Assembly: GCA_944392975.1 (NCBI GenBank)
Contig: CALXYN010000015.1
Location: 1 to 42,980, forward strand
DNA length: 42,980 nucleotides
Direction: 5' to 3'
From: an uncultured Spirochaetaceae bacterium
Lineage (GTDB): Bacteria; Spirochaetota; Spirochaetia; Sphaerochaetales; Sphaerochaetaceae
Part shown: positions 11,576 to 19,157 of the stretch, one piece after another
Layout: each line of letters begins with the position of its first letter
Numbering within the stretch: position 1 is the first letter of the stretch
Notes under the pieces: model-generated
The model's database searches: none
The model's input: only the letters and a program-made list of their open reading frames with translations
Told to the model about the DNA's origin: nothing
Translations under genes and position numbers: made by a program

Positions 11576-11643
11576 ATATAAAATCTTCCGCAGATAACCC
11601 ATTATGCTTGCATATGGGCTGAATGCAGCTTTCCTATCTTTTT

Positions 11644-11662
11644 CATATAACTTTGTTATATG
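11644..11662. repeat. Left-end hairpin of the IS element
   Basis: CATATAAC-TTT-GTTATATG is an 8-bp perfect stem with a 3-nt loop, 30 nt before the tnpB start. IS200/IS605 elements carry subterminal hairpins recognised by TnpA as single strands; this is a good candidate. Confidence 0.65.
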
Positions 11663-11676
11663 AACATTCAGTTTCA

Positions 11677-11691
11677 TGGTATAATATGTAC
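11677..11691 (+). promoter_or_regulatory. Extended -10 promoter of tnpB, leaderless
   Basis: TGG directly precedes a consensus TATAAT (11680-11685), 6 nt before the ATG at 11692. No Shine-Dalgarno is seen. Confidence 0.55.
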
Positions 11692-12936
11692 ATGCAGAAG
11701 GCGTACCGTTTCAGGCTTTATCCGGCAGACGAGCAGAGAGGGCAGATGACGCGCATCATCGGCTGCTGTCGCTTTGTCTGGAACCGTCTTCTGGAATACT
11801 CTTCCAAATCATACAAGCGACGTGGCGAGAGGCATTCGGCCTATGACCTTAACAACTTCATCGCCCACACTCTCAAGCCTGCCTATCCATGGCTCACGGA
11901 TGCTCCAGCACAGACGCTGCAATGCGTATCCGCCGACCTTTCTGCCGCCTTCAAGGCGTTCTTTCGAAAAGATGCGGATTATCCTAAGTTCAAGAAGAAG
12001 CACCGCTCGAAGAAGAGCTTCAGGATTCCTCAGAAAGGCAAAGTGGATGCTGATAACAATCGTATATACGTACAGGGCGTTGGCTGGGTGGATGCTGTCA
12101 TCCACAGGAAGCCATCCGGAAAGCTCAAGAACATCACGGTAACAGTCAATCCCTCAGGTAGTGTCTATGCCTCATGCCTCTTCGAAGATGGCTTTGAGGT
12201 TCCGTCACCGGTTATTCCGGTGAAGCCGAAGGTGCTTGGCATTGACCTCAACCTTGAGCGCCTTGCCGTATGCTCGGATGGGACAGAATATGGAAATCCG
12301 AGGGTGTTGAAGCAGCATGAGAAAAGGCTGAAGCATCTCCAGCGGATGCTGGCAAAAAAGAGGAAGGGGTCGGAGAACTGGAAGAAACTGAGGACTGAGA
12401 TAGCGGTGCTTCATGAGAAGGTTGCCAACATCAGGAAGGATGCAATCCATAAGATGACGAAAAGCATTGTCTGCGACAGCCAAGCGGATGCCATAGTCAT
12501 AGAGGATTTGAATGTATCCGGAATGTTCCGCAATCACAAGCTCTCGAAGCACATACAAGATGCGTCGTTCTACGAGATAAGGAGGCAGATAGAATACAAG
12601 AGTCTCTGGTACGGGAAGACGCTCATCGCGGCGGACAGGTTCTTCGCATCATCAAGGACATGTTCCGTATGCGGCTGGCATAATGACGGCCTCACGCTCC
12701 GTGACAGGGAGTGGGAATGCCCCGTGTGCCATACCAGGCATGATCGGGACCGGAATTCGGCTCTCAATCTTGAATCCTTTGGCCTGAGTGCCCTAGCCGG
12801 GGACGCCGGCGAAGTGAAGCCTCCGGAGATGCCCGCTGTGGACGAAAGCAGGGTTTGCACCTGCATAAGAAGCATGGCATCAGTGAACGAGGAAAAAGAC
12901 CATGGATATTCCATGGAAGCCCCTAAGCTTGCTTAG
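11692..12936 (+). CDS. tnpB: TnpB, RNA-guided DNA endonuclease of an IS200/IS605-type element
   Basis: A 414-residue TnpB; members studied elsewhere are RNA-guided nucleases that cut the empty donor site and so retain the transposon. It starts MQKAYRFRLYP, typical of the family. The RuvC-like active site looks intact: Asp185 in GIDLN, Glu271 in VIEDLNVSGM and Asp351/Asp353 in HDRDRNSALNL. The zinc-ribbon cysteines are CSVC and CPVC. An in-frame ATG two codons earlier and a longer frame from 11623 exist, but homologous starts favour 11692. The final codons overlap the right-end hairpins, which in studied elements form part of the guide RNA. No accompanying tnpA. Confidence 0.93.
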   Translation: MQKAYRFRLYPADEQRGQMTRIIGCCRFVWNRLLEYSSKSYKRRGERHSAYDLNNFIAHTLKPAYPWLTDAPAQTLQCVSADLSAAFKAFFRKDADYPKFKKKHRSKKSFRIPQKGKVDADNNRIYVQGVGWVDAVIHRKPSGKLKNITVTVNPSGSVYASCLFEDGFEVPSPVIPVKPKVLGIDLNLERLAVCSDGTEYGNPRVLKQHEKRLKHLQRMLAKKRKGSENWKKLRTEIAVLHEKVANIRKDAIHKMTKSIVCDSQADAIVIEDLNVSGMFRNHKLSKHIQDASFYEIRRQIEYKSLWYGKTLIAADRFFASSRTCSVCGWHNDGLTLRDREWECPVCHTRHDRDRNSALNLESFGLSALAGDAGEVKPPEMPAVDESRVCTCIRSMASVNEEKDHGYSMEAPKLA

Positions 12937-12965
12937 GAGGTACCGTCACCTGTATAGAGTGTATA
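12780..12965 (+). ncRNA. Candidate omega RNA (reRNA) overlapping the tnpB 3' end
   Basis: In studied TnpB systems the guide RNA comes from the 3' end of tnpB plus the element's right end, and the guide is the flanking DNA. Here two perfect hairpins, CCATGG-ATATT-CCATGG (12900-12916) and CCTAAG-CTTG-CTTAGG (12922-12937), sit at the expected place and are followed by AGGTACCGTCAC, after which a guide would begin near 12948-12952. Both ends are estimates; no RNA evidence is available. Confidence 0.4.
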
Positions 12966-13040
12966 TGGGATAGAGGCTGTAAGAGTCAGTTGAAAAAACG
13001 TCCGCATCTCCTTCTCATTGAGCATGATTCTATTTGACAT
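12933..13040 (-). pseudogene. 5' fragment of a gene truncated by the tnpB element
   Basis: On the minus strand an ATG at 13040 has a perfect GGAGG 8 nt upstream (13049-13053) and a TATATT -10 candidate (complement of 13061-13066). The frame begins MSNRIMLNEKEMRTFFQL and runs 35 codons. It stops at 12933-12935, inside the right end of the IS element, so the last few codons are element-derived. I see no continuation left of the element. The expression signals look real, which suggests a gene cut by the insertion and partly deleted. The product family is not recognisable from about 30 residues. Confidence 0.5.
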
Positions 13041-13111: not shown

Positions 13112-13140
13112 TAGACACCTTTCGCTCCTTCTGATATTCT
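13112..13140 (+). promoter_or_regulatory. Promoter of the pyr operon
   Basis: TAGACA (13112-13117), 17-nt spacer and TATTCT (13135-13140), with TGA directly before it as an extended -10. Transcription should begin near 13147, just ahead of the leader Shine-Dalgarno GGAGG at 13149-13153. Confidence 0.7.
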
Positions 13141-13160
13141 ACGGCAACGGAGGCTAAGGT

Positions 13161-13226
13161 ATGACACACCGTATTATGGATTACTATTCCATGAGTGGAA
13201 ACCTTACCTTTATTGTTTCTGAATGA
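13161..13226 (+). CDS. Leader peptide of the pyr operon (pyrL-like)
   Basis: A 21-codon ORF beginning MTHRIMDYY and ending FIVSE, with GGAGG placed exactly 7 nt before its ATG. Its stop codon (13224-13226) lies 3 nt before the stem of the attenuator. The last codons are rich in U and C in the message (CCTTACCTTTATTGTTTCT), where RNA polymerase would slow when UTP is scarce. In E. coli pyrBI, such pausing lets the leader ribosome catch up and block the terminator. The peptide itself is not similar to E. coli PyrL as far as I can tell; the likeness is one of layout. Two further in-frame ATGs lie downstream (13176, 13191). Confidence 0.7.
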   Translation: MTHRIMDYYSMSGNLTFIVSE

Positions 13227-13229
13227 TTT

Positions 13230-13252
13230 GCCGGCATTGTCCGGCTTTTTTT
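13230..13252 (+). terminator. Attenuator in the pyr leader
   Basis: GCCGG (13230-13234) and CCGGC (13241-13245) form an all-GC stem with loop CATTGT, followed by seven T (13246-13252). It sits between the leader-peptide stop codon and the pyrB Shine-Dalgarno AAGGAG (13255-13260), so it would stop transcription before the operon unless its folding is prevented. Confidence 0.8.
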
Positions 13253-13265
13253 ATAAGGAGAGGCC

Positions 13266-14858
13266 ATGTCTAATGTATTCGCTTCAAGATCGCTGAATGT
13301 AATAGACGATCTATCGATTAATGAACGCAGATACTTCTTTGAAAAAGTGAAGGAGCTCAAGGATGCAATCATTGCCGGAAATGAGGAGGTGCTGAATACT
13401 TTCCGTATTAACGATCCGGACTTCGGAATCTACGAAGTATTCCTTGAGGACAGTACAAGAACGAAAGAATCGTTCCGTAATGCTGCAAACTTCCATCATG
13501 TAAAAGTCTCAGAGCTTATTTCTTCCTCATCATCCATCAACAAGGGAGAAAGCTACGCAGACACTTTCAATATGCTCTCCGGTTACCATAATTCAATATT
13601 CATTGTCAGAAGCAAGGTCGAAGGGCTTACAAAGTGGCTTTCCGAGGAATGTACAGAATACGCTGAGCGCAATGGCCTTCCTTATAGGCCGGCTTTCATC
13701 AATGCAGGGGATGGAAAGCACGAACATCCAACACAGGAACTTCTGGATGAGTTTACGTTCCTTGAGGACATTGATATGAACTTTGACTCAATCCATGTTG
13801 CGCTTGTTGGTGATCTCTATCATGGCCGCACAGTGCACTCAAAAGCAGATGGCCTGAGAATCTTCGACCACGTCAAGGTTGATCTCATCGCACCTGATGA
13901 GCTGATGATGCCGGATTCATATATAGAGAAGATGAAGGAAAACGGATTTGAAGTTTCAATATTTTCTTCGATTGAGGAGTATCTGAAGACTGGAAATCCT
14001 GCAAAGCTATGGTATTTCACAAGACCCCAGCTTGAGAGAATGGGTGAGAGAATATTGCAGAAACAGGATATTCTCCGTGAGGCAATTACCTTCCGCCGTG
14101 ATTTTCTTCCATACCTCAAGGAGGGTACTAAGTTCTATCATCCTCTCCCTCGCCATAAAGAGCATCCAACTATTCCTACATGGCTTGATAAGACATCTCT
14201 CAATGCATGGGAGAGACAGGCTATCAATGGAATGTATTGCCGCATTGTTCTTCTTTCCCTGATCGGTGGCAAAATCGGAGATGATTACATTCCTGTTCCA
14301 GGAGACCATGTCGCAGACAGACGTAAAGAAGAGTATATCATTCAGGTAGAGCCATCAAAGGACAAGAAAAACAAGAACTATTCTGAAGGCGTTCGCCCGA
14401 TTACGGATGGAATAGTTATCGATCATATCTGCAAAGGTGATGAGCCTGGGGCGATACGTTCACACATGCGTCTTATTTCATCTGTTCTCGGCCTTGATGA
14501 TGGAAGAGGCGGCGAGTGGGTCTCAAGGGGTTCTGACGGACAGTATAAAGGCATTATCTTCCGTCCCGGAGCACGTCCTTTTGAGAGAAAGGATCTGAAG
14601 AGGCTTGCCGCTGTTGCACCTCATTGTACTCTTAATATCATCCGTGATGGCCATGTTGCAGAGAAATACAGGACACATATGCCACCTCGCATTTACAATT
14701 TCGATGATCTCTGCTGTCAGAATGAGGCATGTATCTCTAATCCTGTGAATGGAGAAGGTGTGCCTGCTGCATTCTATCGTACACCGGATGGCCATTTTGC
14801 CTGTGCTTATTGTGGAAAATTCCATTCCTTCAAGGAAATATGGAAAAAACGCTCATAA
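13266..14858 (+). CDS. pyrB: Aspartate carbamoyltransferase, catalytic and regulatory chains fused (PyrB-PyrI)
   Basis: Condenses carbamoyl phosphate with aspartate, the committed step of pyrimidine synthesis. The 530 residues hold an N-terminal PyrB catalytic region, with carbamoyl-phosphate loop STRT (63-66), the SSSSINKGES loop, and HPTQ (154-157). A C-terminal PyrI-like regulatory region follows, opening with EGVRPITDGIVIDHI. It has an intact zinc site C484-x4-C489-x23-C513-x2-C516 that in PyrI contacts the catalytic chain. Such PyrBI fusions are known in Thermotoga and some spirochaetes. The regulatory domain suggests nucleotide feedback control. AAGGAG lies 5 nt before the ATG. First structural gene of the pyr operon. 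Confidence 0.95.
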   Translation: MSNVFASRSLNVIDDLSINERRYFFEKVKELKDAIIAGNEEVLNTFRINDPDFGIYEVFLEDSTRTKESFRNAANFHHVKVSELISSSSSINKGESYADTFNMLSGYHNSIFIVRSKVEGLTKWLSEECTEYAERNGLPYRPAFINAGDGKHEHPTQELLDEFTFLEDIDMNFDSIHVALVGDLYHGRTVHSKADGLRIFDHVKVDLIAPDELMMPDSYIEKMKENGFEVSIFSSIEEYLKTGNPAKLWYFTRPQLERMGERILQKQDILREAITFRRDFLPYLKEGTKFYHPLPRHKEHPTIPTWLDKTSLNAWERQAINGMYCRIVLLSLIGGKIGDDYIPVPGDHVADRRKEEYIIQVEPSKDKKNKNYSEGVRPITDGIVIDHICKGDEPGAIRSHMRLISSVLGLDDGRGGEWVSRGSDGQYKGIIFRPGARPFERKDLKRLAAVAPHCTLNIIRDGHVAEKYRTHMPPRIYNFDDLCCQNEACISNPVNGEGVPAAFYRTPDGHFACAYCGKFHSFKEIWKKRS

Positions 14859-14879
14859 CTGATACAATTGGAAGTGATT

Positions 14880-15578
14880 ATGAAAAGACTTGAAGAAATA
14901 ACAGAATATTACGGACCGATACTGGCGAAGGGTGCATTTGAGCTTGGCGCAATCAAGCTTTCTCCTTCTCAGCCCTTCACATGGGCTTCTGGATACAGAA
15001 TGCCTATTTACAATGATAACAGGATGTTCCTCTCATCTCCTAAGTACAGAGCATTAATCCGCGATGCTTTTGCTGATATGCTCTCAGCAACTGGAGAGAA
15101 GTGTGATAATATCGCTGGTACTGCAACAGCAGGTATTCCTCATGCAACAAGCCTTGCTGATATGCTCTACAAACCGCTTTCATATGTGCGTTCCTCTTCC
15201 AAGGACCATGGTCTTGGACATCAGATTGAGGGCATTGGCAAGGATGGTTATGGAAAACAGAAGGTTCTTCTTATCGAGGATCTGATTTCCACAGGCTCAT
15301 CATCTCTGAAAGCTGTTGAGGCTATCAGAAATGCAGATGGTGATTGTTCTCTCTGTCTTGCAATATTCACTTATGGCCTTCAGGCAGCAGTGGATGCTTT
15401 TGCCGCACTGAATCCTGAGTGTGTCTTCTACACAATCCTCTCATATGACACGATGATTCATACTGCATGCGAGACAGGTTATATCTCTTCTGATGAAGCT
15501 GACATTCTTCATGAATGGAGAGAGGATCCGTTTGGATGGGGAGAGAAGAGAGGCTGGCCGAGGGAGGTAAAGGCATGA
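14880..15578 (+). CDS. pyrE: Orotate phosphoribosyltransferase
   Basis: Joins orotate to PRPP to give orotidine 5'-phosphate. The 232-residue protein has the PRPP-binding motif VLLIEDLISTGSSS, with the acidic pair E-D and the TGSS loop, and the dimer-loop segment RSSSKDHGLGHQIEG that carries catalytic residues. I chose the ATG at 14880, which has GGAAG 5 nt upstream; an in-frame TTG at 14868 is possible but less likely. It lies 21 nt after pyrB, and its stop overlaps the pyrF start as ATGA, so these genes are co-transcribed and probably translationally coupled. Confidence 0.93.
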   Translation: MKRLEEITEYYGPILAKGAFELGAIKLSPSQPFTWASGYRMPIYNDNRMFLSSPKYRALIRDAFADMLSATGEKCDNIAGTATAGIPHATSLADMLYKPLSYVRSSSKDHGLGHQIEGIGKDGYGKQKVLLIEDLISTGSSSLKAVEAIRNADGDCSLCLAIFTYGLQAAVDAFAALNPECVFYTILSYDTMIHTACETGYISSDEADILHEWREDPFGWGEKRGWPREVKA

Positions 15579-16456
15579 GCTATATCGACAAACTTAATGA
15601 GAGTGCAAAAGATGCCGGAAATATTGTATGCATGGGGCTTGATCCAGTCCTTTCTGTGCTTCCAGCATCGGATGCACCTGTAAGAGAACGTATTTCTGAA
15701 TACTTTGCCGCCATTTTCCGCCGTATGAGACTTGAAGGCGTTTCTCCTGCAGCTTTCAAGCCAAATATCGGGTATTACTCTTCTCTCGATAAACCTCGTG
15801 AAGAGGATTTCCAAGGTTCACTTGCACTTGCAGATACACTCGATCTCATCGACAACTACTTTCCGGAAGTACCTGTAATCCTTGATAGCAAAAGAGGGGA
15901 CATTGCCCGCTCCAGTGGAAACTATGCAGAAGAGGCATTCTCTGTATGGGGGGCTGATGCTGTGACAGTATCTCCTTATATGGGTACGGATTCCGTGCTT
16001 CCGTTTGCATTTGAGGGAAAGGGTATATATGTTCTCAACAGAACATCCAATCCAGGTGCTATTGACCTGCAGAATATAACGACGCTCGATGCTGTGGATG
16101 AAAAAGAGCTTTATCCGATGTATATCGCTGTCGCGCATCGTATCGCTCATTGGGCAACTGAGCATGCCGGAATCGGTGCTGTCGTAGGTGCAACCAGCAT
16201 GAAAGAGCTGGGCGAGATTGCCACATATTATGCGGGGAGGGATATCCCTATGCTTATTCCTGGTGTTGGTTCTCAGGGTGGAAGCGCTACAGATGTAATT
16301 GCAGCATTGAAGAGTGCAGGTTATTCGCTTGCTCTTGCAAGAATCAACTCATCTTCTGGTCTGACTCATCCATGGAAGAAGGGAAATGCTCCTGAAGACT
16401 GGATTGATCAGGTGATGAAAGCCATACATTCGCTCTTTGCGGAGGCAGCTCTCTGA
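15575..16456 (+). CDS. pyrF: Orotidine 5'-phosphate decarboxylase (type 2)
   Basis: Decarboxylates OMP to UMP, the last step of the pathway. The 293-residue length and the GLDPVLSVLP start match the longer type-2 PyrF rather than the roughly 235-residue E. coli type. The catalytic Asp-Lys-Asp array is in ILDSKRGDIARSS, followed by WGADAVTVSPYMG. PGVGSQGG near 230 would bind the phosphate. The ATG at 15575 overlaps the pyrE stop and follows GGGAGGT; the longer frame from 15515 lies inside pyrE and is rejected. The stop overlaps the next gene by 1 nt (TGATG). Confidence 0.93.
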   Translation: MSYIDKLNESAKDAGNIVCMGLDPVLSVLPASDAPVRERISEYFAAIFRRMRLEGVSPAAFKPNIGYYSSLDKPREEDFQGSLALADTLDLIDNYFPEVPVILDSKRGDIARSSGNYAEEAFSVWGADAVTVSPYMGTDSVLPFAFEGKGIYVLNRTSNPGAIDLQNITTLDAVDEKELYPMYIAVAHRIAHWATEHAGIGAVVGATSMKELGEIATYYAGRDIPMLIPGVGSQGGSATDVIAALKSAGYSLALARINSSSGLTHPWKKGNAPEDWIDQVMKAIHSLFAEAAL

Positions 16457-18123
16457 TGGATATTGCAAATCTCAGGAAGAATCATTTGCAGAAGTCCCCG
16501 ATACTTGCAACTGTATCGGGAGTGGCATCGACGAAGAAGGAACTGATAGAACTCTTTGATAAGAAGATTCCGAGTATAGATATCATAACAACAAAGAGCT
16601 TTCAGGTGACACCTAATCCAGGAAACAGGGAACCTATTGTATGTTCTCCTTCCCCAGGAAATTTCGGGAATTCCGTAGGGCTGAGGAACCCTGGGATGGA
16701 AGTGGTGCTTCCTGAAATAAGGGAAATAAGGGAGAATGGGATGAGAGCTCTTCTTAATATATCGCTCTCAGCTTCCAATCCTGATGACTTCATAACGCTG
16801 GTGAAGGCTTTTGATCCCTATGGTGATATGCTTGAGCTCAATTTTTCCTGTCCTCATGCAGCTGCAGGGTTTGGCGCGTCCATTGGCAGTGATGCAACCA
16901 TTGCTTCCTCTTATGTAAAGGCAATCAATGAAGCTTATCCTGAGAGAAAAGCGCTTCTTATCGTCAAGCTCACACCGAATGTTCCAGATATTGGCGGTAT
17001 TGCCAAGGCTGTGATTGAAGCTGGTGCAGATGGTATTGCCGCTATCAACACAGTAGGACCGAAACTCTATCTCGAGCCTCTGTCAGGTAAGCCGATTCTC
17101 AATAACAAGCTTGGTGGTAAAGGTGGTGCTTCCGGAGAGTGGGTTAATGCCGAGGCTCTTAAATGCATAAAGGAAATAAGAGAGGCTATTGGTGATGAAC
17201 CGATTATCCTTGGAATGGGGGGCGTTACCAGACCTGAGGATGTGAAGGCAATGCTGGATGCCGGTGCTGATAGTGTTGGAATCGGATCTGCATTCTCCCG
17301 TGTAATGCCATCTGAATGGGAAAACTATCTTTCTCTGATGAAGAGTGGAGGAGATGTTTCTTCTCTGCTTTCGAATGAGAATAAGCTTGTCTATACACCT
17401 CATACAGTACTTAGTAAGGAAATGCATAAAGGCGATGTGATGATTCTGAAGGTCTCCGGAAGCATGAATTGTCAGCCTGGAGAGTTCGTTTTCATCTGGA
17501 TACCTGGTCTTGGTGAAAAGCCATTTTCCGTAGCCGTGAATAATCCTCTTACTTTCCTTATAAAGAAGCGAGGCCAGTTCACCGAAGGTCTTTTCGATGT
17601 CAAAGAAGGAGATACTATCTATACCAGAGGCCTTTATGGTAGTCCGATGGTGTATAAGCCTTCTGCAAAAGCTCTTCTTATTGGTGGAGGAACAGGTGCT
17701 GCTGTTCTTCCTCTGATTGCCTCAAAGCTCAAGGAAGATAACACTGAGATGGATATCCGTGTCGGGCTTGTGGAGAAGGAAGATGGGAAGGACCCCCTGG
17801 AGGATGTTCTTTCCGAATATGGTTCATACCGCTCTGTCTCTGATGATGGAAAGCCTGGACGTGTTCTCGACACTATTACGGAAAAGGATATCGAAGGTGA
17901 CATCTCTGCATATATCGTGGGACCTGGGAAGATGATGGAGAAGGCTGCATGCATCCTTGAGAATCTCGGTCTTGATGATGAGCGTATATATCTTTCAATG
18001 GAAAAGAACACGATGTGTGGAATCGGTATGTGCGGAGAGTGTGTATGTGGTGGGCATCTGCCTTGTAAGGAAGGTACGTTCTTCACATGGCATACACTGA
18101 AGGAGAATGGCGCAGAACTATGA
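16456..18123 (+). CDS. pyrD: Dihydroorotate dehydrogenase class 1B, catalytic and electron-transfer subunits fused (PyrD-PyrK)
   Basis: Oxidises dihydroorotate to orotate. The first roughly 305 residues are a class-1 dihydroorotate dehydrogenase: LNFSCPHAAAG holds the catalytic cysteine of class 1B, followed by IVKLTPNV, INTVGP, GGKGGASGEWV and the FMN-binding ILGMGGV and SVGIGSAF strands. The rest is a PyrK-like ferredoxin-reductase region with KPFSV for the flavin, GGGTGAAVLP for NAD, and a [2Fe-2S] cluster motif at C521, C526, C529 and C537 (C531 is an extra Cys). In most bacteria PyrD and PyrK are separate chains, so this single 555-residue polypeptide is a real fusion. NAD+ as electron acceptor is inferred. 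It overlaps pyrF by 1 nt and pyrC by 4 nt. Confidence 0.93.
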   Translation: MDIANLRKNHLQKSPILATVSGVASTKKELIELFDKKIPSIDIITTKSFQVTPNPGNREPIVCSPSPGNFGNSVGLRNPGMEVVLPEIREIRENGMRALLNISLSASNPDDFITLVKAFDPYGDMLELNFSCPHAAAGFGASIGSDATIASSYVKAINEAYPERKALLIVKLTPNVPDIGGIAKAVIEAGADGIAAINTVGPKLYLEPLSGKPILNNKLGGKGGASGEWVNAEALKCIKEIREAIGDEPIILGMGGVTRPEDVKAMLDAGADSVGIGSAFSRVMPSEWENYLSLMKSGGDVSSLLSNENKLVYTPHTVLSKEMHKGDVMILKVSGSMNCQPGEFVFIWIPGLGEKPFSVAVNNPLTFLIKKRGQFTEGLFDVKEGDTIYTRGLYGSPMVYKPSAKALLIGGGTGAAVLPLIASKLKEDNTEMDIRVGLVEKEDGKDPLEDVLSEYGSYRSVSDDGKPGRVLDTITEKDIEGDISAYIVGPGKMMEKAACILENLGLDDERIYLSMEKNTMCGIGMCGECVCGGHLPCKEGTFFTWHTLKENGAEL

Positions 18124-19157
18124 TTGATCCCCATGTTCATCTCAGAGACTGGAATCAGAAAGATAAAGAGACAATCCGTCATGGAATGAAGGTGGCAAAA
18201 GAGCTTGGTTTCTCCCACCTTTTTGATATGCCGAACACCTCTCCTGCATGCACGGACCGTGATACAATCCTTTCTCGCCTTGCTGATGGAGGCGAGGCAG
18301 CAGAAGAGAGCGGGGTATCTTACCATCTCTACGCAGGCGTCACAAATGATACTGAACAAGTTAAGGAGATGGTCTCAGTCCATGACGAGCTTTTTCCGCT
18401 TGTCATTGGACTTAAGATGTTTGCAGGGCAGTCAACAGGGAACATGGGCATTATAGGAAAGGATAACCAGAGAAGAGTTTTCGAAGCGCTTTCTGAGGCC
18501 GGATATACAGGTGTTCTTGCTGTACATGCTGAGAAGGAAGAGCTGATGAAAAAGGATCTGTTTGTTCCAGGACGATGGGAAACTCATTCTCTTGCTCGTC
18601 CTTCTGAAGCAGAGACGGAGAGTGTCAGAGACCTGATAGATTTAGCAGAGGAGAGCGGATTTAAAGGAACTCTTCATATCTGTCATGTCTCTGCAGCTTC
18701 TACTGTGAACCTTGTAAAGGAAAGAAGGAAGACAGAGAGCATCAGAATAACAATGGGGGCAACACCTCACCATGCTCTTCTTTCTGTTTCTGATGCCGTT
18801 GTCCATGACCGATATCTGAAGATGAATCCTCCTTTAAGAAGCGAAGAGGACAGAGCCTGTATTTTCTCTTCACTTCTTGACGGTACCATCGACTGGGCAG
18901 AATCAGATCATGCACCTCATACAAAAGATGATAAGGAAAATGGAGCTTCCGGTATTCCTGGTCTTCCCGGTATGTTGCTTCTGGCATCAAAATTAAGGGA
19001 ATGCGGAGCTGATGAAAAGCGTCTTGCTGAAATATTCGGAAAGACAGCAGCTGCGGTTTTCGGTCTTGCAGATGATGACTTTTCTGTACCAGCAGATTCT
19101 TTTTCCCTATATGAAAAAGCCAGAACAGAGTATTTCTGGGATCCATTTGCTCTTTGA
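18120..19157 (+). CDS. pyrC: Dihydroorotase
   Basis: Cyclises carbamoyl aspartate to dihydroorotate. The 345-residue amidohydrolase-superfamily enzyme starts MIDPHVHLRDW, with the HxH metal ligands, then FDMPNTSP, VHAEKEEL and HICHVSA with further histidines, and the catalytic aspartate in WAESDHAPHTKDDK, a combination diagnostic of dihydroorotases. The ATG at 18120 overlaps the pyrDK stop (ATGA). The AAGGAG upstream is 14 nt away, so translation is probably coupled. It completes the set of five pathway activities; carAB for carbamoyl phosphate is not in the window. Confidence 0.93.
   Translation: MIDPHVHLRDWNQKDKETIRHGMKVAKELGFSHLFDMPNTSPACTDRDTILSRLADGGEAAEESGVSYHLYAGVTNDTEQVKEMVSVHDELFPLVIGLKMFAGQSTGNMGIIGKDNQRRVFEALSEAGYTGVLAVHAEKEELMKKDLFVPGRWETHSLARPSEAETESVRDLIDLAEESGFKGTLHICHVSAASTVNLVKERRKTESIRITMGATPHHALLSVSDAVVHDRYLKMNPPLRSEEDRACIFSSLLDGTIDWAESDHAPHTKDDKENGASGIPGLPGMLLLASKLRECGADEKRLAEIFGKTAAAVFGLADDDFSVPADSFSLYEKARTEYFWDPFAL

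Follow-up and report, generated by a model that had tools for sequence, protein, structure and literature searches.

How is entry of RNA polymerase into a pyrimidine operon controlled when a short leader open reading frame (ORF) and an intrinsic terminator lie between the promoter and the first gene? This arrangement is found in a 42,980-nucleotide (nt) stretch of DNA (the window) from an uncultured Spirochaetaceae bacterium, directly before pyrB in its operon for uridine monophosphate (UMP) synthesis (Table 1). The element is probably a pyrBI-type attenuator of transcription that is coupled to the ribosome and has a gated leader. Coupling of the attenuation to translation is very probable, and uridine triphosphate (UTP) is quite likely the signal, judged by analogy, by the U-rich tract in the leader and by the function of the operon. 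That a hairpin over the leader Shine-Dalgarno (SD) sequence serves as a timing gate has nearly even chances. A preliminary description had proposed pyrBI-style attenuation here, and its coordinates for the promoter, leader ORF, terminator and SD sequences are all correct to the base on direct reading of the window. The ribosome coupling that it assumed is well supported by conservation in relatives. The sequestration of the leader SD by the distal leader was overlooked, so the switch probably works differently than had been supposed.

The pyrB upstream regions were compared among genomes of the same genus, family and class. The genus is the Candidatus Ornithospirochaeta group of the Sphaerochaetaceae, with 44 pyrB loci outside a five-genome PyrR clade. 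The automatic search located the promoter and then the first start codon with an SD, and the start was picked regardless of ORF. A leader ORF reaching the terminator is present in 39 of the 44 loci automatically and in four more by eye (L040 with a GTG start, L042 with TTG, L043 with GTG and L045 with ATG), giving 43/44; L048 is doubtful. Upstream neighbours vary, some species having for instance a divergent dehydrogenase-like gene, while the promoter-leader-terminator block persists. The leaders of G094 and G114 (L058, L061) show a TTGACA-17-TAAAAT promoter, an 18-codon ORF and the terminator. A terminator kept without its leader ORF had been named in advance as evidence against attenuation; in relatives the leader ORF is kept alongside the terminator.

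Leader statistics were taken from 43 non-redundant leaders below about 78% similarity, which include ten hand-placed leaders of Bullifex/Aphodenecus type and some from other genera. An in-frame stop at least 12 nt upstream of the stem occurs in 0/43 leaders versus 34/43 and 30/43 in the other frames, a result that is partly selection, as inclusion required a leader and clearly misplaced starts were dropped. The length from start to stem is 18.7–29.3 codons. In 27/43 the leader stop is found between -2 and +7 nt relative to the stem; most others run into or through the stem, and in about a quarter the ORF passes through it towards the pyrB start. Either way, a finishing ribosome would stand on the 5' arm of the terminator. 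C is enriched to 36% at -25 to -21 before the stem, and T makes up 54–57% at -20 to -11, compared with 29% in the early leader. Outside close relatives the leader peptides have hardly any sequence in common, with no residue run in the genus or in the 43-leader comparison, and no leader rich in the codons of one amino acid was found to be kept in relatives. By this comparison, selection maintains the frame, the timing and the pairing rather than the peptide. Terminators coupled to leader translation are established before amino-acid operons, where they respond to signals other than UTP, and in principle a specific amino acid or an arrest peptide could act through this leader as well. This is very unlikely here, since the peptides have neither a common residue run nor a conserved sequence, and conservation is limited to the frame, U tract and pairing. 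The joint retention of SD, short ORF, U-rich tract and terminator in relatives, against a drifting peptide sequence, gives good support to ribosome-coupled attenuation.

Besides the terminator, folding gives a second, stronger structure, formed in the window by the leader SD/start region and the distal leader at about 13200–13222 (z -2.5 to -3.0). Divergent leaders fold likewise, with the stretch immediately ahead of the U tract as partner of the SD/start region. An alternative pairing of the leader SD with UGUUUCUG of the U-rich tract is also possible by folding. In a partner-swap test each SD region was combined both with the distal leader of its own species and with those of others, which separates covariation from the composition of a G-rich SD and a C/U-rich tract. 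The own duplex reaches -15.1 kcal/mol versus -12.2 kcal/mol for swapped partners in 34 leaders (0/20,000 permutations as low), and -15.9 versus -12.8 kcal/mol in all 43 (0/20,000 permutations, z -7.46). With the 5' segment moved downstream the effect is gone (z -0.02 and +2.0), which argues against a mere G+C effect. The exchange is visible by eye at the base after AAGG, which forms U-A (GGU/ACC) in L005 and L007, G-C (GGG/CCC) in L008, L013 and L015, and A-U (GGAU/AUCC) in L009, L012 and L035. Closure falls from 10.3 to 6.9 kcal/mol on average under random synonymous recoding (Fisher 4e-11) and from 10.3 to 7.0 kcal/mol under codon reshuffling (Fisher 9e-13). As judged by these tests, the pairing of leader SD and anti-SD is maintained by covariation.

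The hairpin might instead belong to plain E. coli-type pyrBI attenuation, as a pause hairpin acting to stabilise polymerase in the U tract, with only an incidental overlap with the SD. Its 3' arm stops a little short of the U tract, at a distance close to the classical spacing of hairpin-stabilised pauses. A hairpin pause has also been described for E. coli pyrL (PMC10135430). We regard this reading as unlikely but not negligible: across lineages it is the SD/start region, rather than a segment closer by, that forms the 5' arm, the neighbouring segments lack covariation (z 0, +2), and a hairpin hiding the SD would hinder the very ribosome that the pause awaits.

The opening cost of the segment from SD to AUG was computed with 14 nt hidden in the polymerase, and it supports a particular closing moment. 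The median over the 43 leaders is 3.7 kcal/mol with polymerase 18 nt before the stem, remains near 4 kcal/mol until polymerase is about 10–14 nt before the stem, and is 11.2 kcal/mol at +2. Swapped chimeras give 4.6 kcal/mol at -18 and 6.6 kcal/mol at +2 (own versus swapped, p about 1e-12). In the window the rise occurs with polymerase at 13218–13226, right behind UUGUUUC, and shifts by a few bases for 10–16 hidden nt. The calculation predicts that the leader SD closes as polymerase leaves the U tract. Closing only once polymerase has left the tract would also suit a pairing that shuts the leader after the decision and limits translation to about once per transcript, with no role in sensing. 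A similar once-only role was reportedly suggested many years ago for the leader of the E. coli trp operon; our literature search returned no match for this. Since closure coincides with the decision point rather than following it, we consider such a role improbable, though it deserves attention.

In E. coli pyrBI, polymerase runs ahead and terminates when UTP is abundant; when UTP is low, pausing in the U-rich leader lets a coupled ribosome prevent the terminator (PMC10135430; see also PMC4824070, PMC5021804). For the spirochaete leader we infer a pause in the U tract, UTP as the signal and a hairpin that would shut out ribosomes in time. Polymerase would start at about 13147, placing the leader SD almost at the 5' end of the RNA; in congeners the SD likewise starts a few nt after the predicted transcription start. 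While polymerase is in the leader and its U-rich tract, the anti-SD segment would still lie within the enzyme and the leader SD would be open. At low UTP polymerase would linger in the U tract, and a ribosome would load and read about 20 codons; at or near the leader stop it would cover the 5' arm of the terminator, and transcription would proceed into pyrBI-E-F-D-C. At high UTP polymerase would exit the U tract at once and the emerging anti-SD segment would shut the leader SD. The terminator would then fold with no ribosome following, and transcription would stop. The switch would thus read polymerase speed by a race, the leader SD staying accessible only as long as the complementary segment is covered by polymerase in or near the U-rich tract. 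We hold this version, including a gate that E. coli pyrBI may share, tentatively and at somewhat less than even chances.

Several points weigh against this mechanism. Its whole basis is sequence comparison and calculation, and the start site is a prediction from spacing. Ten leaders outside the automatic set were positioned by hand. Single leaders are often non-significant (p < 0.05 in 16/43), and L023, L031, L034, L137 and L141 lack excess closure. RNAalifold on a MAFFT alignment of the closest 12 leaders gives a covariation term of 0 and chooses the alternative SD pairing within the U-rich tract, probably owing to shifts in the relative position of the arms; partner swapping was used for this reason. 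The promoter match by itself is at chance level, with 11 found versus 13.1 expected in shuffles, as might be expected if a constitutive intergenic terminator were left over beside a chance ORF. This last reading is hardly credible, as the ORF frame, its end at the stem, the promoter and the terminator are kept together in divergent leaders. The terminator fold is better than 197/200 shuffles, and the whole block is beyond chance because it is conserved in relatives. The leader/terminator junction has no further copy elsewhere in the genome, allowing up to 3 mismatches.

A PyrR-type or riboswitch attenuator would fit a terminator directly before pyrB and the presence of PyrR in a clade of five congeners. 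It is highly improbable at this locus. The lack of pyrR noted in the window extends to the genome, where nothing exceeds the family cut-off (best about 22 bits versus 138), and to 42 other congeners and 49 further spirochaetes; above the cut-off, PyrR occurs in 5/48 congeners only and in 0/49 other spirochaetes. No Rfam family, including the PyrR-binding RNA, reaches its gathering score in the window, and none was found in ten related loci. A simple rule of PyrR or leader, never both, is weakened, as all five congeners with PyrR also carry a terminator, and those read have a short ORF that begins near the predicted 5' end of the RNA (MTQRHRRDIDFLK). In this clade (L062, L064-L067, about 100 nt before pyrB) the ORF is near-leaderless, has 13–15 codons, ends about 10 nt before the terminator and follows a TGnTAGATT-type promoter. 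Loci L054, L148, L072/L073 and L083 also have short ORFs; these begin no more than a few bases from the predicted RNA start, and most of them stop a little upstream of the terminator. The near-leaderless ORFs of the PyrR clade and of these distant loci are possibly leaderless versions of the same device. The pyrR gene of the clade (L094:1453-2043) is divergent from a uracil-permease-like gene and lies on another contig than pyrB.

Like E. coli pyrBI with its leader pyrL, the spirochaete site involves no regulator protein, and the ORF runs through the terminator in pyrL and in roughly one in four spirochaete leaders. However, pyrL has 44 codons and runs through the stem, whereas the spirochaete leaders have about 19–29 codons from start to stem, usually end before it, and have a much shorter 5' end and a covarying SD-closing arm. 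The start site of E. coli pyrBI carries a U run for a second, separate control by reiterative transcription, outside attenuation itself; the predicted spirochaete start site (5' end ACGGAGG) has no such run. PyrR attenuators of Bacillus and others also place a terminator before pyr genes, but the spirochaete site has no PyrR and carries a putatively translated leader in place of the protein-binding loop. In amino-acid leader attenuators (trp, his) the leader ribosome likewise chooses between termination and read-through; the spirochaete leader differs in having no codon run and needs no competing antiterminator, as the ribosome would block the stem directly. E. coli pyrC and pyrD use start-site switching with an SD hairpin, which similarly ties the pyrimidine signal to the hiding of an SD. 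There the SD of the enzyme gene is hidden, in the spirochaete that of the leader, before the terminator.

In E. coli K-12 pyrL (L149) the leader SD CGGGAGGA could base-pair with UCUUCCCG, which lies in the U-rich pause region of the same leader, and passage of polymerase raises the predicted cost of opening the SD from about 2 to 16 kcal/mol. The statistics of this pairing are weak (p 0.025 in the synonymous, 0.15 in the codon-order and 0.06 in the dinucleotide test), and a gate shared by E. coli pyrBI is suggestive only. Pairing of the leader SD/start region with the segment ahead of the U-rich tract is new relative to pyrBI attenuation, and among the papers searchable here we found none on spirochaete pyr attenuation or on SD gating of pyrL. 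Protein-free, ribosome-coupled pyrimidine attenuation is indicated in gut spirochaetes, a group remote from the enterobacteria in which the mechanism was elucidated, and the covarying SD gate offers a concrete, testable answer to how slow transcription may become ribosome loading.

Table 1. Leader elements and pyr genes in the window (positions within the 42,980-nt stretch)
Feature	Position	Strand	Basis and details
Extended -10 promoter TAGACA-17-TGaTATTCT	13112..13140	+	Sequence; TAGACA 13112-13117, 17-nt spacer, TG 13132-13133, TATTCT 13135-13140; same promoter type before nearly all congeners' leaders
Predicted transcription start	13147 (plus or minus 2)	+	From spacing, 7 nt past the -10 box
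Leader SD GGAGG (13149-13153) and start codon, 5' arm of putative gate hairpin	13148..13163	+	Sequence, folding, swap test
Leader ORF, 21 codons, MTHRIMDYYSMSGNLTFIVSE	13161..13226	+	ATG 13161, TGA 13224-13226; frame kept in 43/43 non-redundant leaders
C/U-rich anti-SD segment (ACCUUACCUUU region), 3' arm of putative gate hairpin	13200..13211	+	Folding; covaries with 5' arm
U-rich tract (UUUAUUGUUUCUG region), proposed UTP-sensitive pause	13209..13222	+	T enrichment across 43 leaders
Intrinsic terminator, 5 G-C pairs and 7 T	13230..13252	+	Starts 3 nt (three T) past leader stop; stem GCCGG/CCGGC 13230-13245, loop 6, seven T 13246-13252
pyrB SD AAGGAG	13256..13261	+	Sequence
Fused pyrB-pyrI, aspartate carbamoyltransferase catalytic and regulatory chain	13266..14858	+	NF009916, 807.8 bits (cut-off 800); start codon ATG 13266
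pyrE, pyrF, fused pyrD with electron-transfer subunit, pyrC	14868..19157	+	Rest of operon

The genes downstream of the attenuator make up the UMP operon, with the pyrB-pyrI fusion followed by pyrE, pyrF, a fused dihydroorotate dehydrogenase/electron-transfer domain gene and pyrC. The genome is a 2.07-Mb draft whose nearest named relatives are Candidatus Ornithospirochaeta metagenome-assembled genomes (MAGs), with Bullifex porci and Candidatus Aphodenecus more distant. One related genome (G044) has two full pyrB-pyrI copies (L006, L035), each with its own leader and one almost identical to that of the window; strain mixing in the MAG is a possible cause of this duplication.

Upstream of the promoter, a divergent gene start of 35 codons (MSNRIMLNEKEM..., 12937-13040, - strand) forms a stump beside an IS605-type tnpB gene (11623-12936). 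The gene has 382 amino acids in relatives L008, L021 and L075 and, by its N-terminus, possibly encodes an iron-type alcohol dehydrogenase. No comparable leader ORF with terminator was seen at carA of the genus. GTTGCA/TGCAAC motifs are repeated 45–100 nt before carA in the genus (L150-L169) and are perhaps an operator.
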